Assembly: GCA_017454485.1 (NCBI GenBank)
Contig: JAFTCX010000080.1
Coordinates: 1-38,995, forward strand
Reading direction: 5' to 3'
DNA length: 38,995 nt
From: Clostridia bacterium
Lineage (GTDB): Bacteria > Bacillota > Clostridia > Oscillospirales > Acutalibacteraceae
Part shown: positions 8,745 through 20,395 of the stretch, in pieces
Position numbering within the stretch: position 1 is the stretch's first letter
Layout of the letters: each line of letters starts with the position of its first letter
Made by a program: the position numbers and the translations under genes
The notes under the pieces: model-generated
The model's input: the letters and a program-made list of their open reading frames with translations, nothing else
Told to the model about the DNA's origin: nothing
Databases searched by the model: none

Positions 8745-9551
8745 ATGAAACTCGGTGTACAGCTTTATTCCGTCCGCGACGAGATGGGCGAAGATTTTGA
8801 GGGAACGCTCAAAAAGGTCAAAGACATGGGCTATGAGGGCGTGGAGTTCGCCGGCCTTTACGGCAAAAGCGCCGCAGAGGTCAAAGCGCTGTGTGAAAAA
8901 TACGGGCTGGTTCCCGTTTCGGCACATGTGGCGCTGCACGAAATGCTCGACGATGAAAGCGTGCTGAAAACCTATGCGGACATCGGCTGCAAATTCATCG
9001 CAATTCCCTGGCTGAACGAAGAGGATCGCCCGGGACACGCGGCGTTTGAGCAGAACCTGCCGAAGATTTTGGCGCTCGCAAAACGTGCCCAAGAGCTCGG
9101 CATGTTCCTGGCCTATCACAACCACGACTTTGAATTTGAAAAAATCGACGGCGAATACGTGCTCGATATGCTCTATCGCATCATCCCGGCAGAGCTCCTC
9201 AAAGCGGAGCTTGACACCTGCTGGGTCAACGTCGGCGGTGAAGACCCGGCCAAATATGTGCGCAAATACGCCGGCCGTGTGGACATCATCCACCTCAAGG
9301 ATTTTGCCGGCAAAAAGAGCGAAAATATGTATGCGCTCATCGGCGTGAACGACGGCAAAAAAGATGACACCGTCGGCAGCTTTGAGTTCCGTCCGGTCGG
9401 TATGGGTCTGCAGGATATGCCCGCCATTCTCAAGGCCGCCGAGGAAAGCGGCACAGAATGGGCCGTTGTGGAAATGGACAGCCCGGCGCTCGGTCTGACG
9501 CCGCTGGAATGCATTGAAAAGAGCGCGGCTTATTTGAAACCGCTGCTGTAA
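8745..9551 (+). CDS. Sugar phosphate isomerase/epimerase-fold protein 2
   Basis: TIM-barrel enzyme of 268 residues, cytoplasmic, 6 nt after the previous gene with AAGGATGA as ribosome site. It has the canonical set of this family: AYHNHDFEFEK, a Cys-containing LDTCWVN stretch holding the metal Asp, IIHLKDF (His) and VVEMDS (Glu). The N-terminal MKLGVQLYSVRDEM is typical of the group often annotated as sugar phosphate isomerase. It is the most ordinary of the three barrels here and the best candidate for a true metal-dependent isomerase, epimerase or hydratase in the operon. Confidence 0.92.
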   Translation: MKLGVQLYSVRDEMGEDFEGTLKKVKDMGYEGVEFAGLYGKSAAEVKALCEKYGLVPVSAHVALHEMLDDESVLKTYADIGCKFIAIPWLNEEDRPGHAAFEQNLPKILALAKRAQELGMFLAYHNHDFEFEKIDGEYVLDMLYRIIPAELLKAELDTCWVNVGGEDPAKYVRKYAGRVDIIHLKDFAGKKSENMYALIGVNDGKKDDTVGSFEFRPVGMGLQDMPAILKAAEESGTEWAVVEMDSPALGLTPLECIEKSAAYLKPLL

Positions 9552-9565
9552 AGGAGAAAAGCACT

Positions 9566-10531
9566 ATGAAACTCGGCGTATTGACCAACATGATCGGCTC
9601 CTGGCCGCTGGAAAAAGCACTGGCCTACTTTACCTCGCTCGGCATCGAGATGGTGGAGATCGGCGCCGGCGGCTATCCGGGCAAGGAGCACGCGGACCCC
9701 GAGGTGCTGCTGCACAGCGAAAGCAAGCTGCGGGAATTCAAGGATCTCATTGAAAAATACGGCGTCGGAATCAGCGCCATCAGCTGCCACGGCAACCCCG
9801 TGCACCCGAACAAGGAGATTGCAAAGCAGTTCGACGCCGAAATGCGTCAGGCTGTTCTGCTTGCGGAAAAGCTCGATATTCATCAGATCAACACGTTTTC
9901 CGGCTGCCCGGGCGACTGCCCGACTTCGGAAAACCCGAACTGGGTGACCTGCCCGTGGCCGAATGAATTCCTTGATATTTTGAACTACCAGTGGAACGAC
10001 GTGCTGCTGCCCTACTGGGCGGAGTTTGTCAAATTCGCCGCCGACCACGGGGTAGACAAAATCGGCTTTGAGCTGCACCCGGGCTTCTGCGTCTATAACA
10101 CGCAGTCCATGCTGCGCATCCGCAAGGAGATCGGTCCCGCGCTGGGCGCGAACCTTGACCCGAGCCACCTGATCTGGCAGGGCATGGAGCCCGTTGCGGT
10201 CATTCGTGCACTGGGCGACGCGATTTTCCACTTCCACGCCAAGGACACCAAGGTTGACAAATACAACACCGCCGTCAACGGCGTTTTGGACACAAAGCCC
10301 TACAGCGACGAAATTCACCGCTCCTGGGTGTTCCGTTCCGTCGGCTACGGCAACGACGAGCTTTACTGGAAGGACATCATCAGCAACCTGCGCATGGTTG
10401 GCTACGACCACGCCATCTCCATTGAGCACGAGGACTCCATCCTCAGCCAAAAGGAAGGTCTGGAACGCGCCGTTTCCATGCTCAAGCGCTGCATGATCGG
10501 CGAACAGCCCGGCGATATGTGGTGGGTATAA
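9566..10531 (+). CDS. Sugar phosphate isomerase/epimerase-fold protein 3
   Basis: TIM-barrel protein of 321 residues, larger than its two neighbours, with AAAGGAG 9 nt before the ATG. Metal ligands are visible in order: GFELHPGF (Glu), NLDPSHLIW (Asp), FHFHAKDT (His) and SIEHED (Glu). There is a Cys/Pro-rich loop (GCPGDCP) near residue 113. It belongs to the longer subfamily in which several members act on 3-keto sugars, but that link is from memory and not proven. The ordering dehydrogenase, three barrels, dehydrogenase and the single terminator after the fifth gene support one pathway. Confidence 0.9.
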   Translation: MKLGVLTNMIGSWPLEKALAYFTSLGIEMVEIGAGGYPGKEHADPEVLLHSESKLREFKDLIEKYGVGISAISCHGNPVHPNKEIAKQFDAEMRQAVLLAEKLDIHQINTFSGCPGDCPTSENPNWVTCPWPNEFLDILNYQWNDVLLPYWAEFVKFAADHGVDKIGFELHPGFCVYNTQSMLRIRKEIGPALGANLDPSHLIWQGMEPVAVIRALGDAIFHFHAKDTKVDKYNTAVNGVLDTKPYSDEIHRSWVFRSVGYGNDELYWKDIISNLRMVGYDHAISIEHEDSILSQKEGLERAVSMLKRCMIGEQPGDMWWV

Positions 10532-10553
10532 GCGAAGAAAAGAGGGACCCGAT

Positions 10554-11612
10554 ATGGAAAAAATCAAAGTTGCTGTCGTCGGCTTCGGCGGCATGGGCGG
10601 CTGGCATGTGGACCGGTTGTTGCATATGGAAAAATTCAGCCTCTCCGGCGTGTGGGACATTGACCCCGAACGGCTGGAAGAGGCAAGAGAACGCGGCATT
10701 CACACCTACGCGTCGTTTGAGGACGTGCTTGCGGACAAGGAACTGGAGCTTGTGGTGGTTGCCACATGGAACGACGTGCACAAGCCGCTTTGCATCGCAG
10801 CCATGCGCGCGGGCAAAAATGTGATTTCGGAAAAGCCGGTGGCCATGAGCCTGGAAGAGCTCGACGAAATGATTGCCGTTTCCAAAGAGACCGGCAAGCT
10901 CTTCACCGTGCATCAGAACCGCCGCTGGGACGACGATTTTTTGACGATGGTGAACATTGTGCAAAAGAACAAGCTCGGCAAGGTGTTCCGCATTGAATCG
11001 CGCGTGCAGGGCTCGCGCGGCATTCCCGGCGACTGGCGCAGAGAAAAGGGCCACGGCGGCGGCATGGTGCTCGACTGGGGCGTGCATCTGCTCGATCAGG
11101 CGCTGACAATGAACGACGAAATCGCGCTGCAAAGCGTTTGGGCGCAGACCACACACATCACCAACGACGAATGCGACGACGGCTTTTATTGCGAACTGCA
11201 GTTTGAAAACGGGCTGCACTACGCGGTGGAGGTCACAACCAACAACTTCATCTCCCTGCCGCGCTGGTACATTCTCGGCGAAAACGGCTCCGCCGTGATT
11301 GAGGACTGGGAGCTGAACGGCAAAATGACGCTGGTGCACAACTGGGACAAGATCGATTCCGTTCCCGTCAAAGCCGGCACGGGCATCACCAAGACGATGG
11401 CGCCGCGCACGGACGAAACGATTCACGACGCGCCGCTGGAAAAAATCAACGGCAAATGGGAGCAGTATTACGACAACATCTACGACGTGCTCAAAAACGG
11501 CAAAACGCAGACGGTCACCCACCGTCAGATGCGCCGCTGCCTGAAGCTGATTGAAGCGATTTTTGAATCAGCCGAAAAAAATCAGGTGATTGCGTTTGAT
11601 GAAAATAAATAA
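10554..11612 (+). CDS. Gfo/Idh/MocA family oxidoreductase (second of two)
   Basis: NAD(P)-dependent dehydrogenase, 352 residues. Rossmann motif VVGFGGMGGWH at 8-18, SEKP at 92-95, and the catalytic pattern DWGVHLLD at 174-181 with D174 and H178 intact, unlike the first dehydrogenase of the operon. The second domain follows the family length. AGAGGGAC precedes the ATG at 10554. Having one canonical and one His-to-Tyr dehydrogenase in the same operon suggests opposite or different substrates, for example oxidation of an incoming glycoside and later reduction of a keto sugar. This is inferred from gene order. Confidence 0.93.
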   Translation: MEKIKVAVVGFGGMGGWHVDRLLHMEKFSLSGVWDIDPERLEEARERGIHTYASFEDVLADKELELVVVATWNDVHKPLCIAAMRAGKNVISEKPVAMSLEELDEMIAVSKETGKLFTVHQNRRWDDDFLTMVNIVQKNKLGKVFRIESRVQGSRGIPGDWRREKGHGGGMVLDWGVHLLDQALTMNDEIALQSVWAQTTHITNDECDDGFYCELQFENGLHYAVEVTTNNFISLPRWYILGENGSAVIEDWELNGKMTLVHNWDKIDSVPVKAGTGITKTMAPRTDETIHDAPLEKINGKWEQYYDNIYDVLKNGKTQTVTHRQMRRCLKLIEAIFESAEKNQVIAFDENK

Positions 11613-11613
11613 A

Positions 11614-11645
11614 GTCGGGAGTCGTTAGTCGGTAGTCATTAGTAT
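11614..11645. repeat. Degenerate GTCGTTAGTC-type tandem repeat, left copy
   Basis: Short overlapping units of the form AGTCGTTAGTCGGTAGTC just after the operon's last stop. A longer copy in the opposite orientation lies at 14028-14084 on the far side of the CHAP gene. I have seen this kind of low-complexity intergenic repeat in related gut Clostridia; origin and role are unknown. Confidence 0.6.
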
Positions 11646-11699
11646 GTGAAATAGCCGTGCGCAGTTTTCAGCGGCGGCATATAGAAACTGAATCCGTAG

Positions 11700-11726
11700 G
11701 GGCGGCCATTGGCCGCCCGTTTTTTT
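11700..11726 (+). terminator. Intrinsic terminator of the dehydrogenase/isomerase operon
   Basis: GGGCGGCC (11700-11707) pairs with GGCCGCCC (11711-11718) across a 3-nt loop, followed by GTTTTTTT. The stem is entirely G-C, so this should be strong. It lies 88 nt after the stop of the second dehydrogenase. Confidence 0.88.
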
Positions 11727-11735
11727 GTGGAAAGC

Positions 11736-11764
11736 TTGACTTCTTTCGGAGGATATGATAAAGT
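11736..11764 (+). promoter_or_regulatory. Promoter of the leader RNA and CHAP gene
   Basis: TTGACT (11736-11741), 17-bp spacer, TAAAGT (11759-11764). The expected start of transcription is about 11771, which is exactly the first base of the 14-bp closing stem of the leader RNA. That agreement supports both calls. Confidence 0.65.
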
Positions 11765-11770
11765 ATAGGT

Positions 11771-11925
11771 GCCAAACAAAAAAGTGAAGCTTATTTCACA
11801 GATATTTTTATGCATGCATGATATAAACGTGCAGGAGGTGCAACCTAATAAAAAGGTGCATCTGTTATCTCCTGCGCGCACACTTTGTCATGCTGTGCAA
11901 TAAGCTGAGATCTTTTTTGTTTGGC
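11771..11925 (+). ncRNA. Rod-like structured leader RNA, candidate cis-regulatory element
   Basis: Nested complementary segments fold into one long rod. P1 is 14 perfect pairs (11771-11784 with 11912-11925). P2 is 14 positions with one mismatch (11788-11801 with 11893-11906). P3 is CATGA/TCATG (11817-11821 with 11888-11892). P4 is GCAGGAG/CTCCTGC (11831-11837 with 11869-11875). A short P5 is ACCT/AGGT (11843-11846 with 11854-11857). A 15-nt bulge lies between P2 and P3 on the 5' side. It sits between a promoter and a terminator switch ahead of the CHAP gene. I could not match it to a known riboswitch class. Confidence 0.7.
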
Positions 11926-11931
11926 GACGAA

Positions 11932-11973
11932 ATGAGATGCACTTTTTATGCGTCTCATATGAGGCGCTTTTTT
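11932..11973 (+). promoter_or_regulatory. Mutually exclusive antiterminator and intrinsic terminator
   Basis: GCGTCTCAT (11950-11958) can pair either with the upstream ATGAGATGC (11932-11940, one G-U) or with the downstream ATGAGGCGC (11959-11967, one G-U). The second hairpin is followed directly by TTTTTT (11968-11973), so it is an intrinsic terminator; the first would prevent it. This is the usual build of a riboswitch or attenuator expression platform. It begins 6 nt after the rod RNA ends and 44 nt before the CHAP start codon. Confidence 0.75.
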
Positions 11974-12017
11974 GTTGCCTCAAAACTCTATTTTATTTCC
12001 GAAAGGAGAAGTCAAAC

Positions 12018-13886
12018 ATGAAAAAAACGAAACGGGTCATGTCCATTGTTCTTGCTGTGCTGATGCTGATTTGTGCTGTGCCGGTGATGGAGGCGGATGC
12101 GGCAACATTTTCCCCGCGCTTGACAGCACCGGAGCGAACCGGTTATTACGGTACGCAAAACAGTTACAATCCATTCTGGACAAATTCGAGCGCCGGAAAC
12201 GGAAACTGTACTTGGTATGCGTGGGGCAGAGCTTATGAACTGCTTGGCTCCAGACCGCAACTCAGTACAGGAAATGCAAACACATGGTATCCGCGCAATC
12301 AAAGTAACGGTGCATATCCATACGGCTCAACGCCGAAGCTTGGCGCGATCGCTTGTTGGGCTACTGGAAGCGCTGGTCATGTTGCTGTTGTGGAAGCTAT
12401 CAACGATGATGGAACTTTTACAATTTCAGAATCATCATGGAGTGCGACTTCTTGGTGGTTCAGAATAAATACAATTAGAACTTCGTATTATTCCAGTTTT
12501 CAAGGGTTCATATATATTGGGGACTTTTCGAATGTGCCAATAGCGGCACCGTCATGGGCAACCATTACTGTTGATTATAACAGTATCCCGGTTGGAAACA
12601 ATATCAATTTTATTTTTAATAGTGAACGCGCCACCGGATATACAATCGGAATCAACAAGGGGAGTACACGTGTTTTAACGCAGGATATAAGAAGTAATCA
12701 GTTTTCCTACAATTGCACGATAAAGGGAGACTATTCGGCTTATGTAACCGCATGGAATGAATCCGGTCATGTAGATAGTCAGGAAGTCTATTTCTCCGTT
12801 TATGATTCCAAGCCTTCTTCTAGCAGTATTCAATCTAATACAAAAGCATTGAGGGTGGGAAACACCATCTGGTTTGAATTTGATAGCGACACAGCGGTCG
12901 GATATACGATTGGAATTGATAAAAATGGTGGTCGTGTTTTGACACAAGATGTCAGAGAGAGAGAATTCTCCTATAATTGTGCATCGGTTGGAATATATTC
13001 TGCATATGTCACTGCATGGAATAATTTCGGATTAACGGATAGTCAAAGAGTTTATTGGACTGTTTATGATTCAAAACCAACTATCAGTACTATAACTGCA
13101 AGTCATGAATTGTTGCCAATCAATCAAACAATTACTTTTTCTTTTGAAAGCGATACAGCGATTGGATATACAATTGGAATCGATAGGAATGGATCACGTA
13201 TCCTAACGCAGGATATAAGAGAGGAAGAATTTTCATACACTTGCAGTTCACTCGGAGATTTTTCGGCATATGTAACTGCTTGGAATGAAATTGGAATAAA
13301 GGATAGCAATCGAGTGAATTGGACGGTTTATGATCCAAATCATATCCACGCTTACACTTCTTCCGTCACCACACCTGCAACATGTATTGCAACCGGTGTA
13401 AAAACTTATACCTGCACTGTCTGCAACGCGACTAAAACCGAAACCATTTCCATCAACGTAAACCATCACGTCAACACTAAGAATATCGCTGCAACCCCCT
13501 CCACCTGCACTGTGAAAGGCTACACCGCCGGTGTTTACTGCAACGACTGCAAGAAGTACATCAGCGGACACACCGAGCAGGCGCTTTCCGCCCATCAGAC
13601 CACAACCGTCAACGTCAAAAACGCAACCTATGACGCCGAAGGTTACACCGGCGACACCTATTGCTCGGTCTGCAAGCAGACGCTTTCCTATGGCACGGTC
13701 ATTCCAAAGCTGGTGAAGCCCGACGAGCCCACCAACCCCACAAATCCTACCCAGCCGACAAATCCGGCACCGCAGCCCCAGCAAAGCGGCTCCTGTCGCT
13801 ATTGCGGCGGCACTCATACAGGTTTCCCCGGCGTTTTGATCGGCTTCTTCCACAGTATTCTTGCGTTGTTCGGTCTGCGCAAATAA
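12018..13886 (+). CDS. Secreted CHAP-domain cell-wall hydrolase with three repeat modules and CxxCG-HTGF tail
   Basis: Probable peptidoglycan amidase or endopeptidase, 622 residues. Start chosen at 12018 (AAAGGAG upstream, signal peptide 1-29 ending ADAA); the frame is open from 11937 but that part is leader. The CHAP domain spans about 45-170: catalytic Cys64 in GNCTWYAWG, His121 in AGHVAVVE and Glu138 in ISESS. Three near-identical modules of 87-89 residues follow (about 181-264, 271-354, 358-440), each with GYTIGI, LTQD-[IV]-R and SAYVTAWN. They look like beta-sandwich wall-binding or spacer units. Then CxxC repeats (445-560), a PTNPTNPTQP linker, and a 30-residue tail with CRYCGGTHTGF, a hydrophobic stretch and a basic end. 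The repeat region is clearly AT-rich against its surroundings. Confidence 0.9.
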   Translation: MKKTKRVMSIVLAVLMLICAVPVMEADAATFSPRLTAPERTGYYGTQNSYNPFWTNSSAGNGNCTWYAWGRAYELLGSRPQLSTGNANTWYPRNQSNGAYPYGSTPKLGAIACWATGSAGHVAVVEAINDDGTFTISESSWSATSWWFRINTIRTSYYSSFQGFIYIGDFSNVPIAAPSWATITVDYNSIPVGNNINFIFNSERATGYTIGINKGSTRVLTQDIRSNQFSYNCTIKGDYSAYVTAWNESGHVDSQEVYFSVYDSKPSSSSIQSNTKALRVGNTIWFEFDSDTAVGYTIGIDKNGGRVLTQDVREREFSYNCASVGIYSAYVTAWNNFGLTDSQRVYWTVYDSKPTISTITASHELLPINQTITFSFESDTAIGYTIGIDRNGSRILTQDIREEEFSYTCSSLGDFSAYVTAWNEIGIKDSNRVNWTVYDPNHIHAYTSSVTTPATCIATGVKTYTCTVCNATKTETISINVNHHVNTKNIAATPSTCTVKGYTAGVYCNDCKKYISGHTEQALSAHQTTTVNVKNATYDAEGYTGDTYCSVCKQTLSYGTVIPKLVKPDEPTNPTNPTQPTNPAPQPQQSGSCRYCGGTHTGFPGVLIGFFHSILALFGLRK

Positions 13887-14027: not shown

Positions 14028-14084
14028 TGACAGCTAGCAGCTAACAGCTAACAGCTATCGACTAACGACTATCGACTGCCGACT
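14028..14084. repeat. Degenerate AGCTAACAGCTA / CGACTAACGACT tandem repeat, right copy
   Basis: First AGCTAACAGCTAACAGCTA-like units, then CGACTAACGACTATCGACT-like units, running up to the stop codon of the aminopeptidase gene. The second half is the reverse complement of the GTCGTTAGTC motif at 11614-11645, so the leader RNA and CHAP gene lie between inverted copies. Confidence 0.65.
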
Positions 14085-15493
14085 CATTTCTCATACGAAA
14101 AATACGCCTTGCAGGCACGGAATGTGCTGTAAACATCGCTTTTGGCAACCACTTCAAACGGCGCGTGCATCGACAGCACGGGCACGCCGAGATCGACCAC
14201 ATCCACGTTCATGTTGGCAACATACATTGCCACCGTGCCGCCGCCGCCCTCATCGACCTTGCCGAGCTCGCCGATCTGCCAGCAGACGTTTTCGCTGTCC
14301 AGCGCGGCGCGAACCCAGCCGAGGAATTCCGCGTGCGCGTCAGAGCTGCCGCTCTTGCCGCGTGCGCCGGTGTATTTTGTGATGACCGCGCCGTGGTTGA
14401 GGAACGCGGCGTTCAGCTTGTCGTGCACCTGCGGGAAGGTCGGGTCAAAGCCGGCGTTGACGTCGGCGGAAAGGCAGGAGGATTTTCCGAGCACACGGTG
14501 CACGGGCACGCCCGCCTGCATGGCAAGCTCGGCGATGAAATCGTGCAGATAAGCCGAATTCAAGCCGGTGTTGCCGTCGGAGCCGATCTCCTCCTTGTCG
14601 GTGAGCACGGTCAGCGAGGTTTTCACGGGCACGTCAACGGCAAGCAGCGCCTCCATCGCGGGATAGGCGCACACACGGTCGTCGTGGCCGTAAGCGCCGA
14701 TCATGCTGCGGTCAAAGCCGATGTCGCGCGCTTGGAACGCCGGAACCAGCTCCAGCTCGGCGGAGATGAAATCGTCCTCGGTGATGCCGTATTTTTCGTT
14801 CAGCAACCGCAGAAGGTTCAGCTTGACAAGTTCGCTTCCCTCGTCGTCCTTGAACGGGCGCGAACCGATCAAAATGTTCAGCTCCTCGCCCTTGATGCCG
14901 TCAGCCAGCGTGCGCTTGGACTGTTCAGCCGCAAGGTGCGGCAGCAAATCGGTGACCACGAACTGCGGCTCGCCGGGTTCTTCACCCAAACGAACACAGA
15001 CTTTTTCGCCGTTCTTTTTGACAAATACACCGTGCAGCGACAGCGGAATGGCGACCCACTGATACTTGCGGATGCCGCCGTAGTAATGCGTTTTGAAGTA
15101 GCCCAGCTCGTCGCTTTCATACAGCGGGGTCGGCTTGAGATCGAGACGCGGAGAGTCAATGTGCGACGCGACGATGCGCACGCCGTTTGCAACGCTCTCT
15201 TTGCCGAACACGCACAAGATGACCGATTTGCCGCGGTTGCCGAAGTAGACCTTGTCGCCCGGGGCGTAGGTTTTTTCGGGATCAAACGGGACAAAGCCCG
15301 CCTCTTCAATGTGCTTCACAATCCAGCCAAAGCATTCGCGCTCGGTTTTTGCGCCGTTCAAAAACGCTTTGTACCCCTCGCAGAACGCGTCGGCCTTTGC
15401 CGTTTCGTCTGCGTCAAAGCGCGCGGTGAAGTGTTCGTTTTTGCGGAACAACTGCTCCTTGAGCTGTTCAGCCTTTGATTTTTCCTTGTCCAT
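14084..15493 (-). CDS. M18 family aminopeptidase
   Basis: Cytosolic zinc aminopeptidase that removes N-terminal, often acidic, residues from peptides. At 469 residues it has the family length. Zinc and catalytic residues are visible: SHIDSPRLD (His, catalytic Asp), YGHDDRV (bridging Asp), DKEEIGSDG (catalytic and metal Glu), ADVNAGFDP, and VLSMHAPFE (last His ligand). ATG at 15493 has AGGAGG 7 nt upstream. It is the last gene of the operon starting at the DUF951 gene, 12 nt after the transglycosylase. Gene symbol left blank because apeA and apeB types cannot be separated by eye. Confidence 0.94.
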   Translation of the reverse strand: MDKEKSKAEQLKEQLFRKNEHFTARFDADETAKADAFCEGYKAFLNGAKTERECFGWIVKHIEEAGFVPFDPEKTYAPGDKVYFGNRGKSVILCVFGKESVANGVRIVASHIDSPRLDLKPTPLYESDELGYFKTHYYGGIRKYQWVAIPLSLHGVFVKKNGEKVCVRLGEEPGEPQFVVTDLLPHLAAEQSKRTLADGIKGEELNILIGSRPFKDDEGSELVKLNLLRLLNEKYGITEDDFISAELELVPAFQARDIGFDRSMIGAYGHDDRVCAYPAMEALLAVDVPVKTSLTVLTDKEEIGSDGNTGLNSAYLHDFIAELAMQAGVPVHRVLGKSSCLSADVNAGFDPTFPQVHDKLNAAFLNHGAVITKYTGARGKSGSSDAHAEFLGWVRAALDSENVCWQIGELGKVDEGGGGTVAMYVANMNVDVVDLGVPVLSMHAPFEVVAKSDVYSTFRACKAYFSYEK

Positions 15494-15505
15494 AATGGAA
15501 CCTCC

Positions 15506-16114
15506 TTAATCTAAATCGTAGAGTGCGGCGTAAATGCGCTGCACTTTTTTTACTCTTTTTACATAGCGCTCCGTGGTGCCGAACGGAATGGCGCGCAGCG
15601 TTTTTCCGTCGGCGCTGTATTGTTCGTCCCGCAGCCATTTGCCGACATTGCCGATCCCCGCGTGATAGGCGGCGACCGCCGTGCTTTGTTCGCCGGAAAA
15701 TTCCGAAAGAAGAATGCGCAGCAGATAGCAGCCGTAGCGCACGTTAATTGCCGGATCGAACAGATCGTCTTCGGCGTGCTCCTCGCCGAGTTTTGTGCAA
15801 AGCCAGCGGAAGGTTTCCGGCATAAGCTGCATCAGTCCGCGTGCGCCGACGTTTGACACCGCCTGCGGATCAAAGCCGCTTTCACACATGATGACGGCGT
15901 AGACGAACGAGCGCGGCAAATTTTGCGCACGGCAACCGATTTCGACCTCTTTTTCATATTGCAGCGGATATAATGATTTCAGCACACCGCGCACGGCAAG
16001 TCTGCCGGTGAAGCCGACCAGAAAGCCGGCAAGCACGCAAAGCAGCAAAATCAGCGCGACGGTGCGCGGATGAAATCTGCGGCGTATGCGGCGGGAATTA
16101 TTCAAGCGTTCCAA
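15506..16114 (-). CDS. Membrane-anchored SLT-type lytic transglycosylase
   Basis: Cleaves the glycan strands of peptidoglycan to anhydro-muropeptides. A basic N-terminus and one membrane segment (LILLLCVLAGFLVG) anchor it; the SLT domain lies outside. Motifs: MCESGFDPQAVSNVGARGL with the catalytic Glu of ESGF, LMQLMPET, INVRYGCYLL and AAYHAG. I place the start at TTG 16114 (202 residues), because GGAGG lies 6 nt upstream; the frame stays open to 16210 but would overlap coaE by over 100 nt without a ribosome site. A second TTG, four codons further, overlaps the coaE stop and is a possible alternative. It overlaps the end of coaE by 17 nt. Confidence 0.9.
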   Translation of the reverse strand: MERLNNSRRIRRRFHPRTVALILLLCVLAGFLVGFTGRLAVRGVLKSLYPLQYEKEVEIGCRAQNLPRSFVYAVIMCESGFDPQAVSNVGARGLMQLMPETFRWLCTKLGEEHAEDDLFDPAINVRYGCYLLRILLSEFSGEQSTAVAAYHAGIGNVGKWLRDEQYSADGKTLRAIPFGTTERYVKRVKKVQRIYAALYDLD

Positions 16115-16673
16115 GGGCGGCCTCCAGTGCGTTCGGTGTGTTGTTTTCAATGATGATGTCGGCCTGTGAAAGATAATAGTCGTCCTCTTTCTGCATCCGC
16201 ATCCGCGCACGCGCGTCTTCTTCGCTTAAGCCGTCGCGGGAACGAATGCGCTGCAAGCGCACGCTTTCCGGCGCGGTGACGACGATGATTTTTTCACACA
16301 GCGCTTTGGACGGACTTTCCAGCAGCGCCGCCGCGTCAAACACGCAGCGGGTAAAGCCGGCGTTTTGCGCCTTTTGCACCTCGGCGCGTAAAAGCGCGTC
16401 GATGGCGGGATGGGTGATTGCGTCAAGCTGCTGCTTGCCGTCTGCCCGTGCGTTCACCTTGCGCACCAGCGCTTTGCGGTCAAGACTGCCGTCCGGCAGC
16501 AAAATGTCTGCGCCGAAGACGGAGGCCAGCGTTTGCAAAACAGGCGAACCCTTTTGCGTCACCTGTCGCGCGAGCACGTCGCCGTCGATCACATACCAGC
16601 CCTTTTCGCGCAGCAGCGCCGCGGCGGTGGATTTTCCAGCACCGGTTTTTCCGGTCAAACCGTAAATTTTCAT
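16098..16673 (-). CDS. coaE: Dephospho-CoA kinase
   Basis: Last step of coenzyme A synthesis: ATP-dependent phosphorylation of the ribose 3'-hydroxyl of dephospho-CoA. The product is 191 residues, normal for the family. The P-loop GKTGAGKST starts near residue 8; DGDVLARQVT follows, then the ITHPAI motif and the VFDAALL core strand. ATG at 16673 is preceded by GAGGCG and lies 7 nt after the tsaC stop. The longer frame to 16814 is rejected because it lacks a start signal and lies within tsaC. Confidence 0.95.
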   Translation of the reverse strand: MKIYGLTGKTGAGKSTAAALLREKGWYVIDGDVLARQVTQKGSPVLQTLASVFGADILLPDGSLDRKALVRKVNARADGKQQLDAITHPAIDALLRAEVQKAQNAGFTRCVFDAAALLESPSKALCEKIIVVTAPESVRLQRIRSRDGLSEEDARARMRMQKEDDYYLSQADIIIENNTPNALEAALGTLE

Positions 16674-16680
16674 AAGCGCC

Positions 16681-17706
16681 TCACAGTTCAATGATTCGAA
16701 ACGCGGCGGCACGTACAAGCCGGTTGAACACGGCAAGACCGATGCCGTCCATCGCCGGGAAGCGGGCATACACACGGTTTGCGCCGCAGCGGTCCACCTC
16801 CCGCAGCGCCTCAAAAATGCGCTGCGCCTGCGAAAGGCTGTCTTTTTCGCTGCCGAACGTCACGGTTTTCACCGGAAGCAGCGCGGCCTCCTCCGTAAAG
16901 CAAAGCGCCAGCGTATGTTCGTCCGCGTGCGACAAAACATAGTTGCGGAATGCGTCAAAGCTGCCCTTGAGCAGCACGACCTCGGCGCGCGGCGCGTAGT
17001 GCTTGTATTTCATGCCGGGAGAAGCGGGGGCTTCGCCGCTTTGCAGCTGTTCAAAGACAGCCGGGTCAATTTCAAGTTCACCCAGCGCCGCCCGCAGCAT
17101 TTCCGGCGTAATGCCGCCCGGACGCAGCAGCCGCGGCACACTTCCGCACAGCGACAGCACCGTAGATTCCACGCCGACGCTGCACGGACCCGCGTCCACA
17201 ATCGCGTCAATCTTTCCGCCGAGATCCTCCAGCACATCCGCCGCTCTGGTCGGGCTGGGGCGTCCGCTTGTGTTTGCGGAGGGTGCGGCCAGCGGCACGC
17301 CGGCAAAATCGATCACCGCGCGCGCGATCGGATGTGACGGCAGACGCACGGCAACGGTGGAAAGTCCGCCGCTGACGACCGGCCCGATGCGTTCGCTTTT
17401 CGGCAGGATCATCGTCAGCGGACCCGGCCAGAACAGCGATGCGAGCTTTTTTGCGCGGTCTGGAACCTCCGTTACCAGCGCTTGCCATTGTTCAAACGCG
17501 CTGATGTGCACGATCAACGGGTTGTCGGACGGTCTGCCCTTTGCCCGGTAAATGCCGCGCACAGCAGCTTCGTCAAAGGCGTTGGCCGCAAGGCCGTAGA
17601 CCGTTTCGGTCGGAATGGCGGCAAGTCCGCCGCGCCGCAAGATTTCGCCGACGCCGCGCAGACGTTCGTCGTGCGGGTCGGTGGTTTGAATCAGTTTTGT
17701 TTCCAT
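16681..17706 (-). CDS. tsaC: L-threonylcarbamoyladenylate synthase (Sua5/TsaC type)
   Basis: Makes threonylcarbamoyl-AMP from threonine, bicarbonate and ATP for t6A37 modification of ANN-decoding tRNAs. At 341 residues it is the long Sua5 form: YrdC-like domain (1-205) with PTETVYGLA, KGRPSDNPL and PLAAPSANTSG, followed by a linker with SPGMKYKHYAP and the C-terminal Sua5 domain. It starts 3 nt after the prfA stop, which suggests translational coupling. Pairing of prfA with sua5 is common in Firmicutes. In B. subtilis the equivalent gene is ywlC. Confidence 0.95.
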   Translation of the reverse strand: METKLIQTTDPHDERLRGVGEILRRGGLAAIPTETVYGLAANAFDEAAVRGIYRAKGRPSDNPLIVHISAFEQWQALVTEVPDRAKKLASLFWPGPLTMILPKSERIGPVVSGGLSTVAVRLPSHPIARAVIDFAGVPLAAPSANTSGRPSPTRAADVLEDLGGKIDAIVDAGPCSVGVESTVLSLCGSVPRLLRPGGITPEMLRAALGELEIDPAVFEQLQSGEAPASPGMKYKHYAPRAEVVLLKGSFDAFRNYVLSHADEHTLALCFTEEAALLPVKTVTFGSEKDSLSQAQRIFEALREVDRCGANRVYARFPAMDGIGLAVFNRLVRAAAFRIIEL

Positions 17707-17709
17707 GGT

Positions 17710-18792
17710 TTATCCTTCGTTTTCGCCGCTTGCCTTGAGCTTTTCGGCAGTATCGGCGGTGATCAGCGCGTCGATCACCTCGTCCATATCGCCGTTGATG
17801 AACTGTTCCAGCTTATACAGCGTCAGCCCGATGCGGTGATCGGACACGCGGCTTTGGGGAAAGTTATAGGTGCGGATACGTTCGCTGCGGTCGCCGGTGC
17901 CCACCTGGGCCTTTCGCGCGTCGGCAATGGTAGACTGCTGCTTTTGCCGCTCCTGTTCAAGCAGCTTTGCACGCAGCACCCGCATGGCCTTGTCCTTGTT
18001 TTTATGCTGACTGCGCTCATCCTGACATTCCACGACCGTGCCCGTCGGCAGATGCGTGATGCGGATGGCGGATTCCGTTTTGTTGATATGCTGCCCGCCG
18101 GCGCCGCTGGAGCGGAACGTGTCGATCTGCAAATCGGCGGGATTGATGTCGATATCGACGTCCTCGGCCTCCGGCAAAACGGCCACGGTGGCAGTCGATG
18201 TATGGATGCGCCCCTGCGACTCCGTTTCCGGCACACGCTGCACGCGGTGCACCCCGCTTTCAAATTTAAAGCGGGAATAGGCCCCTTCGCCCGAAACGAG
18301 AAAGCTGACCTCCTTGAAGCCGCCAAGCTCCGTTTCGTTGGCGCCGAGCAGCTCCGTTTTGAACCCCTTGCGCTCGGCGTACATGCCGTACATACGGAAC
18401 AGCACACCCGCAAACAGCGCGGATTCTTCACCGCCCGCGCCGCCGCGAATTTCCACGATCACATTTTTGTCGTCGTTTTCGTCGCGCGGCAAAAGCAGCA
18501 CCTTGAGCTCCTCTGTCAGTTTTTCGCAAGTTGCCTTCTGCGCTTCGGCCTCCTCCTGCGCCATCTCGCGCAGCTCAGGGTCGCTTTCCGGGTCTTCAAG
18601 CAGCAGCTTTGCTTCGTCCAACGCCGCCTTTGCGCTTTGAAAAGCGCGAAACGTTTCCACCACCGGCTGCAGCGTCTTGCGTTCGCGCATCAGCGCCGCA
18701 TAGGCTTTCCGGTCGGAAATGACCGCGGGGTCGCACAGCTTTTTGTCCACTTCCACAAACCGCGCTTCCACATCGGCAAGTTTTTCAAGCAT
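17710..18792 (-). CDS. prfA: Peptide chain release factor 1
   Basis: Releases the finished protein at UAA and UAG codons. The 360-residue length is standard. The universal GGQ loop is in [12 protein letters not shown] (middle of domain 3), and the stop-codon reading loop is PET in RVPETESQG, which fits the PxT rule of RF1 (RF2 has SPF). ATG at 18792 overlaps the DUF951 stop by 8 nt, and no separate promoter is seen, so it depends on upstream translation. Confidence 0.97.
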
Positions 18793-18982
18793 CGCCGTCC
18801 TGCTCCTCTCTGATGATTTTTCGGATGTTCTTTTCCGCCTTGCGCCGCGGCACCATCACCTCATGCGCACAGCCACGGCAGCGCAGACGAAAATCCATGC
18901 CGGTTCTGAGGACCTCAAATACGTTGTTGCCGCAGGGGTGATTCTTCTTCATCACCAGCACATCGCCCACACGCACGTCCAT
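18785..18982 (-). CDS. DUF951 family small protein
   Basis: 65-residue cytoplasmic protein of unknown function, widespread in Firmicutes. It shows the family pattern: [13 protein letters not shown], then [14 protein letters not shown] and [12 protein letters not shown], with three Cys that could bind metal. The family is thought to be RNA- or nucleic-acid-related but this is unproven. ATG at 18982 has AAGGAGG upstream. First gene of the prfA operon. Confidence 0.9.
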
Positions 18983-19015
18983 GAAGCATCCTCCTTTTCA
19001 AGTCTCTAAAAATAT

Positions 19016-19044
19016 ATTATACCAAATGATTCCAAAAATATCAA
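19016..19044 (-). promoter_or_regulatory. Promoter of the DUF951-prfA-tsaC-coaE operon
   Basis: Minus-strand TTGATA (19039-19044), 17-bp spacer, TATAAT (19016-19021). A near-consensus sigma-A promoter about 35 nt ahead of the DUF951 start codon. Confidence 0.8.
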
Positions 19045-19077
19045 TCGTTCCGGGCAATCAATCAAAATAAAATCCGT

Positions 19078-19097
19078 TTTCAATACATATATTGAAA
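19078..19097. promoter_or_regulatory. Palindrome TTTCAAT-N6-ATTGAAA ahead of the S1-domain gene
   Basis: Perfect 7-bp arms (19078-19084 and 19091-19097) in the 156-bp divergent spacer. Size and position suit a dimeric regulator's operator, or it could be chance in AT-rich DNA. No convincing promoter for the plus-strand gene was identified. Confidence 0.35.
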
Positions 19098-19138
19098 CGA
19101 AACAATAAAAAGCTGCTCTCAGCGGAAAGGACTACACC

Positions 19139-20092
19139 ATGAAACTCTATTATCCTGAAAGTTATCTCCTCCCCAGCGAGGACAATGCCGCCGCGTTTGC
19201 CTCCGGCGCGGCACTCAAAGAAGCGTTCTACAGCGGAAAAACACTGGAGGCACGCGCCGTCATGTGCGACAAGGCGCATGATCTGCACGTTGATCTCGGC
19301 GTGATGCGCGGCATCATCCCACGCGCAGAGGGGGCGCTCGGACTTGAAGACGGCTCAGTGCGCGACATCGCGGTCATCTCCCGCGTCGGCAAGCCCGTGA
19401 TGTTCAAAATCACCGGCTTTACAGCCGACGACAGCGGCCATCCGCTCGCTGTGCTCAGCCGCCGCGCCGTACAGCAGGATTGCCTGAACGAATACATCGC
19501 CCATCTGCAGCCCGGCGACATCATCGACGCCGTGGTCACACATCTTGAGCCCTTCGGCGTGTTCTGCGACATCGGCGCGGGCATCAGCGCACTGATGCCC
19601 ATCGACACGATCTCCGTCTCGCGCATCCCCCACCCGTCCGCGCGCTTCACACCCGGACAGCGGATCAAGGCGGTGGTCAAAAGCAAGGACGACGCGGGCA
19701 GGATCACGCTCAGCTACAAGGAGCTGCTCGGCACATGGGAAGAGAACGCTGCGTTCTTCCGCCCGGGCGAAACGGTGCCGGGAATCGTGCGTTCTGTGGA
19801 GCGCTACGGCATATTTGTGGAGCTGCGGCCGAATCTGGCAGGACTTGCGGAGTATCTGCCCGGCGTATCGCCCGGACAGCAGGCCAGCGTGTATATCAAA
19901 AACCTGATTCCGGAGCGCATGAAGATCAAGCTCATCATCGTAGACGCTTTTGACGCAGCCATTCCGGCGGCAAAGACGCAGTATTTTCTTTCCGGCGCGC
20001 ACATCGACCGCTGGGTCTACTCCCCTGCCTGCTGCGACAAGACCATTGAGACGGTTTTTGAAAAGCAGCCGGCCGTCGCGGGGGCCGTTTAA
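19139..20092 (+). CDS. S1-domain RNA-binding protein
   Basis: 317-residue protein with tandem S1 (OB-fold) motifs, related to ribosomal protein S1 but shorter. Recognisable units lie near residues 40-110 (less conserved), 120-200 (GDIIDAVVTHLEPFGVFCDIGAGISALMP in outline, then ITLSYKELLGTW) and 205-275 (GETVPGIVRSVERYGIFVEL). The LSYKELLGTWEENA segment is typical of S1-family joints. Expected to bind mRNA or assist translation in the cytoplasm. ATG at 19139 has AAAGGA 9 nt upstream. It is a single-gene unit. Close relatives in Clostridia are usually annotated as ribosomal protein S1-like. Confidence 0.87.
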   Translation: MKLYYPESYLLPSEDNAAAFASGAALKEAFYSGKTLEARAVMCDKAHDLHVDLGVMRGIIPRAEGALGLEDGSVRDIAVISRVGKPVMFKITGFTADDSGHPLAVLSRRAVQQDCLNEYIAHLQPGDIIDAVVTHLEPFGVFCDIGAGISALMPIDTISVSRIPHPSARFTPGQRIKAVVKSKDDAGRITLSYKELLGTWEENAAFFRPGETVPGIVRSVERYGIFVELRPNLAGLAEYLPGVSPGQQASVYIKNLIPERMKIKLIIVDAFDAAIPAAKTQYFLSGAHIDRWVYSPACCDKTIETVFEKQPAVAGAV

Positions 20093-20395
20093 GGGAATGA
20101 TTTGCAAGTTTTCTGTAAAGGTTATGCATTGTCAAAGCGAAGAAGGGTGTAAAGTAAAAAACTTCTCTATGTGGAAAACTACGTGAAATTTATTGAAAAC
20201 TTTGATTTTTCCACATATTTTTTCGATTTCAGAACGATTTTTTCGGGAAATCGTGAAGTTTTCCGCTTTACTCACAGAGTTTTCCACACCACGCGCTTGG
20301 ATTATTCATTTTCATGTAAATGAAAGAAACGAAAATACTGTTTGGCGTGCTGTGAAGCACAGCGCCTGCATCCGCAGCACGCCGCACAAAAAAAC
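20093..20395. other. Non-coding AT-rich spacer with three TTTTCCACA 9-mers
   Basis: No gene is supported in this 300-bp stretch. TTTTCCACA occurs at 20207-20215 and 20280-20288 and in reverse at 20170-20178. The first two facing copies can pair as a 10-bp stem followed by ATTTTTT, a weak terminator for the S1 gene. A further ACGATTT/AAATCGT hairpin lies at 20234-20254 and a GGCGTGCTG/CAGCACGCC hairpin at 20344-20383. Confidence 0.5.

Follow-up and report, generated by a model that had tools for sequence, protein, structure and literature searches.

A putative attenuator RNA family of uncultured gut Clostridia in which the tip of a long hairpin may compete for the antiterminator

Analysis of a 38,995-nt stretch of DNA from a Clostridia bacterium (contig JAFTCX010000080.1, referred to here as the window) revealed a leader that we interpret, with a probability of roughly 70 %, as a transcription attenuator acting in cis and belonging to a class that Rfam 15 does not contain, in which the tip of a long rod-like hairpin competes for one strand (b) of the antiterminator. 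At the level of sequence and folding energy, a promoter, a leader, a terminator and a mutually exclusive antiterminator were found upstream of a gene; the predicted assignment as an attenuator is well supported, as is the topology of the pairing alternatives. The promoter, the rod, the pairing alternatives, their co-variation and the position before a gene were all obtained by computation, and covariance searches indicate that the element is a many-copy RNA family of uncultured gut Clostridia.

The leader and its pairing alternatives

An initial annotation had described the order promoter, fold, switch and gene at positions 11736–12017, and direct reading located all of these parts where it had placed them. 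The plus strand carries a sigma70-type promoter (11736–11764) with a −35 box TTGACT (11736–11741), a 17-nt spacer and a −10 box TAAAGT (11759–11764), from which transcription would be expected to start at ~11770–11772, the base of the rod. Here, GCCAAACAAAAAAG (11771–11784) pairs perfectly with CTTTTTTGTTTGGC (11912–11925) over 14 bp, so the rod closed by this base stem measures 155 nt (11771–11925). Both the rod by itself (−62.9 kcal/mol, z −7.75) and the whole 267-nt leader (−94.2 kcal/mol, z −8.1) fold better than any of 200 shuffles. The minimum free energy (MFE) fold places an apical hairpin, a:a′, at 11838–11863, with a′ (AAAAAGGTGCATCT, 11850–11863) forming its 3′ part and an A-run in the loop.

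The switch lies 3′ of the rod. Hairpin P1, the putative antiterminator (11933–11957), pairs TGAGATGCA (11933–11941) with its downstream partner TGCGTCTCA (11949–11957) around the loop CTTTTTA, while the putative intrinsic terminator (11950–11973) pairs 11950–11956 with 11961–11967 around the loop ATAT and ends in T6 (11968–11973). The two hairpins are mutually exclusive, as 11950–11956 can be used by either, and the 48-nt switch is nearly isoenergetic between them (terminator, −13.1 kcal/mol, MFE; antiterminator, −13.0 kcal/mol, centroid). With a z of −2.74 and 3 of 200 shuffles reaching the same energy or better, the switch taken by itself is weaker evidence. The pairings in the initial annotation (14-bp stem, 155-nt rod, two-way switch strand and T6) can thus be read directly from the sequence; the terminated RNA that it predicted is retained, with an expected length of ~203 nt in place of ~205 nt. 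Downstream, a Shine–Dalgarno (SD)-like AAAGGAG (12002–12008) precedes the likely start codon at 12018; a longer ORF from 11937 has its start inside the switch. The putative controlled gene (12018–13886, plus strand) encodes a 622-aa protein with a signal-peptide-like N terminus and CHAP (E value 1.6e-18) and PKD (E value 7.6e-08) domains.

Two features were absent from the initial annotation, namely the other copies of the element, described below, and a second partner for the 5′ strand of the antiterminator. The rod tip a′ (11850–11863) is complementary to strand b (AGATGCACTTTTT, 11935–11947), which on grounds of energy and co-evolution we regard as a pivot that pairs either with a′ or with c, the strand that follows it. 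The a′:b pairing comprises 13 pairs with one bulged G in the window and has an energy of −17.6 kcal/mol, measured on L054, a copy whose rod and switch are identical to those of the window.

Two types of repeat were observed beside the leader. The palindrome GTAGGGGCGGCC..GGCCGC (11696–11716), placed immediately 5′ of the leader, is a dispersed repeat with 12 occurrences in the same genome (reversed control, 0). Degenerate heptad arrays (AGTCRNT), present at 11620–11637 and 14060–14077, were matched 91 times genome-wide (control pattern, 2) and are found on many contigs, including upstream of the leaders in the window and on contigs C26 and C32.

Copies of the element and co-variation of their stems

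A DNA search of the same genome returned nine matches: besides the window, it recovered segments of four further leaders and short stretches matching the upstream palindrome. The four further leaders (contigs C26, C32, C53 and C36) proved complete on reading and folding and were combined with that of the window into a covariance model, R1, which detected six copies in this genome at E values ≤1.1e-7 and, at E≤0.01, gave matches in 31 of the 59 genomes searched, the own one among them; the highest count, 16, was in genome G030. A second model, R2, built from mixed subtypes, returned 13 matches at E≤1.1e-5 in the own genome, of 16 listed; among the ten weakest of these 16, seven (L272–L278) have a promoter, rod and switch, while L279, L280 and L281 are without the full anatomy. 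R2 matched 25 of 39 relatives (E≤1e-5) and 96 of 391 genomes sampled within the own class (E≤1e-4); in a draw of 398 genomes from the phylum that included some class members (E≤1e-5), only the own genome was matched. The class and phylum counts are lower bounds, because at most 14 candidates were scored per genome and strict filters applied, with thresholds of 1e-4 and 1e-5, respectively; the E values of both models are rough.

A named scan yielded at least 115 stretches in at least 80 loci, in metagenome-assembled genomes (MAGs) of Ruminococcaceae, Oscillospiraceae and other Clostridia-type names, and many of the MAGs among the matches listed carry ruminant sample names. Three of the 80 listed loci (L167, L173 and L181) were judged to be chance matches, coming from an alphaproteobacterium, Dictyobacter and, for L167, an Oscillospiraceae MAG without a rod. 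The resulting set of 145 copies comprises 90 from the genome searches and 58 non-identical ones from the named scan, less these three. Leaving out 26 copies without a predicted rod of ≤200 nt gave 119, or 110 after removal of near-duplicates. A set of 126 was formed by adding 16 of 20 extra loci, the four left out being L279, L280 and L281 (non-member or rodless) and L288 (over-long predicted rod). The leader of the window is represented by L054 in the 110- and 126-copy sets.

The copies share one anatomy. A promoter directly precedes the rod in 103 of 125 copies, compared with 163 of 2000 random 51-mers, and its spacing is 17 in 92 of these 103; the median distance from the end of the −10 box to the rod is 5 nt. 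Rod sequences are variable among copies, but the base arms still pair and an A-run lies inside or beside the hairpin loop of the tip. The order 3′ of the rod is b (with a U-run at its end), c, d and a T-run. An energy of −6 kcal/mol or lower is reached by the P1 region (b:c) in all 126 copies and by the terminator (c:d) in 124 of them. Across the family, the switch is more than a chance feature: the hairpin that competes with the terminator has a median energy of −10.9 kcal/mol in the 126 copies, in contrast to −2.0 kcal/mol for 387 control terminators from the same loci (sequences resembling the element excluded), and is at −10 kcal/mol or lower in 78/126 copies versus 27/387 controls.

Partner swaps across the 126 copies weakened every stem: own partners gave −15.2 kcal/mol for the base stem, −17.5 for P1 and −14.1 for the terminator, compared with −7.1, −12.2 and −10.3 kcal/mol, respectively, for swapped ones. 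Alignment A3, picked by hand as 23 of the 43 short leaders of the window's broad type, has 94.5 % of cells paired over base stem, a′:b and terminator combined, with 37 double changes against 12.2 in shuffles (0/500), and sliding the partners lowered the paired cells to 58.5 % or less every time. For a′:b alone, 95 % of cells in A3 are paired, with five doubly changed pairs, each in one sequence; its co-variation is stronger in the swap tests than in the A3 count. The apical hairpin pairs in 94/138 cells of the 23-sequence alignment and the mid-rod in 98/206, probably reflecting misalignment. In a mixed alignment, the terminator is 94.0 % paired, with 32 double changes against 11.8; alignment A5 (29/30) was trimmed by hand, L162, which is without a terminator, having been dropped. 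The initial annotation had named a lack of compensatory base changes as evidence against itself, and the search for them gave the opposite result: the stems co-vary. The element therefore has a conserved structured domain with co-variation, as looked for in riboswitches. Above the base stem, a conserved AATA bulge shows weak enrichment (68/126 versus 42 in shuffles), and for this reason we claim no ligand pocket.

The pairing of the rod tip with b was examined in the same copies. In 120 of 126 of them, the strand that pairs best with b begins at or beside a hairpin loop of the rod, compared with 367 of 1260 shuffled b strands, and RNAduplex of the rod core with b gives a median of 17 pairs. 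Over 110 copies, own cores paired with b at −16.0 kcal/mol, swapped cores at −12.2 and shuffled cores at −8.9, and the own core beats the swapped partner within each of the three main types too. For a given b, an average of 17 % of foreign rods do as well as the own rod (n=110), which ranks in the top 5 % of partners in just 24/110. Within genomes, none of 5000 permutations of tip–b partners reached the observed sum, the own tip outpaired a foreign tip in 298 of 420 comparisons, and it was the single best partner in 22 of 64 cases (11 by chance). These comparisons indicate that the a′:b pairing co-evolves in cis; since the own tip is often not the best partner and foreign tips sometimes pair more strongly (the core of L012 with b of L009, −23.6 kcal/mol; L009's own, −15.4 kcal/mol), pairing in trans may occur as well. 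RNAalifold, applied to 23 sequences aligned by MAFFT, returned a′:b together with the terminator as its consensus, unprompted; this program cannot draw pseudoknots, and the base stem was dropped in favour of a′:b.

Several loci hold more than one copy. L104 (G030:C53), L120 (G033:C46) and L072 (G033:C11) have two or three tandem copies ahead of one gene, each with its own promoter and terminator, and L105 (G032:C33) has two copies with the same short gene start after each. At L084, L087 and L097, copies lie shortly 3′ of the apparent 3′ end of a 23S rRNA gene; the end of L087 gives a cut-off match to the Rfam LSU model, below gathering score.

Proposed mechanism and competing explanations

Under the attenuator reading, transcription would begin at the rod base and the rod would fold, exposing the A-rich tip hairpin a:a′. 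Strand b, made next, would then face two competing partners, a′ and c. The A-run on the U-run is a likely toehold for capture of b by a′, which would grow to 13 bp in the window and would require the rod to fold back. With b held by a′, c would be free to pair with d, forming the terminator (OFF); with a′ withheld, b would pair with c in P1, the terminator would be blocked and the surface-protein gene read (ON). The tip would be made before b and b before c, which should give tip capture a head start, and a′:b is the likely OFF partner. The apical hairpin region is itself stable (median −12.5 kcal/mol versus −16.5 kcal/mol for a′:b) and in L009 more so than a′:b (−23.4 versus −15.4 kcal/mol), suggesting that capture of b by the tip is not always favourable; in this model, b could be captured only if the rod makes a sharp bend. 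A signal acting on the rod, be it a small molecule, an ion or a protein, would decide the switch.

The same anatomy could operate in the opposite sense, with a kissing contact between the tip loop and the P1 loop (A-run with U-run) stabilising P1, so that contact means ON and its loss OFF. The U-run does sit in the P1 loop and the A-run in the apical loop, and because both contacts share the same letters, co-variation only partly separates them. However, the complementarity is not confined to the loops and takes in part of the P1 stem (13 bp in the window; a median of 17 pairs for rod core and b), making a′:b incompatible with an intact P1, and RNAalifold pairs a′:b together with the terminator; we consider the kissing arrangement unlikely. 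Slightly less likely again is that the terminated rods of ~200 nt are small RNAs that act in trans on the b strands of sister leaders and so couple the family. Such a role would suit the finding that every copy is a promoter-to-terminator unit, the tandem copies (e.g. G030:C53 at 14037, 14322 and 14591) and the foreign tip–b pairs that exceed the own pair, but own pairs are better on average within genomes (0/5000 permutations) and an SD-led ORF starts no more than 60 nt from the match in 93 of 145 copies, which favours cis control. On the latter count, a stand-alone small RNA was also rejected as the main reading.

We regard it as improbable that the leader serves protein-bound antitermination, the rod being a platform for a factor and a′:b a by-product of two similar protein-binding hairpins. 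The tip hairpin and P1 are indeed alike, so that a′ resembles c and a resembles b, and the downstream genes are often long surface-protein genes; yet the apical A-run is complementary to the U-run of b and has no counterpart before c. For control of the LoaP kind, which was tried and rejected, model NF033641 exceeded its curated cut-off in 0 of 39 group genomes, own included. Its sub-cut-off matches, found in 33 of the 39 group genomes, fit ordinary NusG, as 13 of 14 control genomes have them too. Control by a leader peptide was likewise rejected, since an SD with an upstream ORF of at least six codons occurs in 36/126 leaders and 356/1260 shuffled leaders. Least probable is that the element is a cassette of mobile or repetitive DNA and its RNA structure incidental: many copies, some of them in tandem, and near-identical leaders before unrelated genes would be in keeping with this, but the stems still pair while sequences diverge, promoter spacing is fixed and the copies lie before SD-led start codons. 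One exact pattern gave no matches in viral contigs, a weak test of a cassette or of phage origin because the pattern is exact (a looser form finds 56/90 copies).

Downstream genes and comparison with known leaders

An SD-led ORF starts within 330 nt of the match in 131 of 145 copies; this distance is measured from where the model or pattern match ends, a point inside the switch in the named loci. Of the 14 copies without one, four have only 83, 104, 123 and 206 bases of contig remaining, and others are the front member of a pair or triple. By an ad hoc hydrophobicity rule (not SignalP), 88 of the 131 downstream ORFs have a signal-peptide-like start, giving them a secreted or membrane-bound look, versus 22 of 137 background ORFs taken from the named 8-kb loci only. 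A Pfam scan of 106 of the 115 listed downstream proteins, cut at 450 aa, identified 25 with BspA-type LRR_5, 6 with DUF6273, 5 with a zinc ribbon, 4 with CHAP and 2 with SLH. Together with the signal-peptide counts, this suggests that the regulated set leans towards accessory surface or secreted proteins, the CHAP protein of the window being one case.

The gene behind the leader appears to be exchangeable. A 12-kb stretch of sister genome G019 is collinear with the window, with 91.2 % identity over window positions 9305–12026 and 91.5 % over 14050–20335, but in place of the CHAP gene (12018–13886) it encodes an unrelated DUF6273 protein (locus L292; best BLASTP E value 2.2), with ~1.2 kb extra between the swapped gene and the right flank that holds a 389-aa frame on the other strand. 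Up to the SD, the two leaders do not differ in rod or switch; one difference lies in the promoter spacer, and a single-base gap directly follows the SD. Similar leaders ahead of unrelated proteins were also found in G000:C53/G019:C4 (leader 93 %), L153/L191 (91 %) and L171/L186 (93 %), and similar leaders with homologous proteins occur too (e.g. G015:C16/G031:C63). Recombination through the leaders and strong selection on them both fit this gene exchange.

We tentatively propose, at well below the confidence placed in the attenuator itself, that the element is a signal-responsive RNA switch class by which uncultured gut Clostridia jointly govern an exchangeable surface proteome, the leader being a fixed socket (promoter, sensor rod, switch and ribosome site) behind which unrelated surface genes are swapped. 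If so, any acquired surface gene would fall at once under the same signal, and one RNA class, which roughly one in four genomes drawn from the class contain (96/391) and which has up to 16 model matches per genome, would time the production of accessory surface proteins in gut Clostridia. It would also bring a further attenuator design, one where the tip of a long hairpin is itself a competitor for the antiterminator, provide a handle on the signal to which gut bacteria tune their surface proteins and offer a sequence marker for exchangeable surface-gene sites.

Searches with the Rfam 15 covariance models returned no family at or above gathering score anywhere in the window, in agreement with the initial annotation, which had recognised no named class; from 16 further loci, the models recovered nothing but three tRNAs and one RNase P, which served as positive controls. 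With E-value thresholds instead, all matches were below the family's gathering score, and the best near the leader, a partial match to PhrS (E value 0.0028, 11700–11727), was rejected; it falls on the palindrome upstream of the promoter. In Firmicutes, the c-di-AMP riboswitch (ydaO/yuaA, RF00379) occurs ahead of cell-wall hydrolase genes, and the initial annotation had drawn general links to both. Neither link was supported: this riboswitch has no match at gathering score in the window, the ydaO model is not among the 15 Rfam matches up to E=10 for 11700–12060, and CHAP occurs in only 4/106 of the downstream proteins scanned. The association of the leader with CHAP is incidental.

T-box leaders, common in Clostridia, are of similar length and have a long first stem and a choice between antiterminator and terminator, all of which the element shares. 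Unlike with them, none of the downstream Pfam families listed (25 of 50) is an aminoacyl-tRNA or amino-acid family, and no T-box appears in the Rfam match lists for the window, the leader or the further loci. LoaP-dependent leaders have a hairpin that controls read-through before long genes. The element is similar in its leader hairpin ahead of long genes, but no LoaP exceeds the curated cut-off in the 39 group genomes.

In a literature search of partial coverage, no description of this RNA was recognised. PMC8632094 gave no matches in a term search, and the words Ruminococcus, Clostridia and Rumen are absent from the main text of PMC11109978. The latter (Narunsky et al. 2024) describes orphan motifs, including trpB, with a putative antiterminator in the shoulder of a stem, and one motif with a possible pseudoknot between a terminator loop and the preceding hairpin; the element is reminiscent of these as an orphan leader with a putative antiterminator. 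With riboswitch-type attenuators in general, it shares a 5′ leader, an upstream fold, two exclusive hairpins and a U-run before the gene. It differs from them in that the tip strand of the rod itself competes for the antiterminator, in having no known ligand and in occurring in up to 16 matches per genome ahead of unrelated surface genes, not those of one pathway. The general kind, an attenuator and orphan riboswitch candidate, is already known, and what is new is the architecture, the copy number and the gene set.
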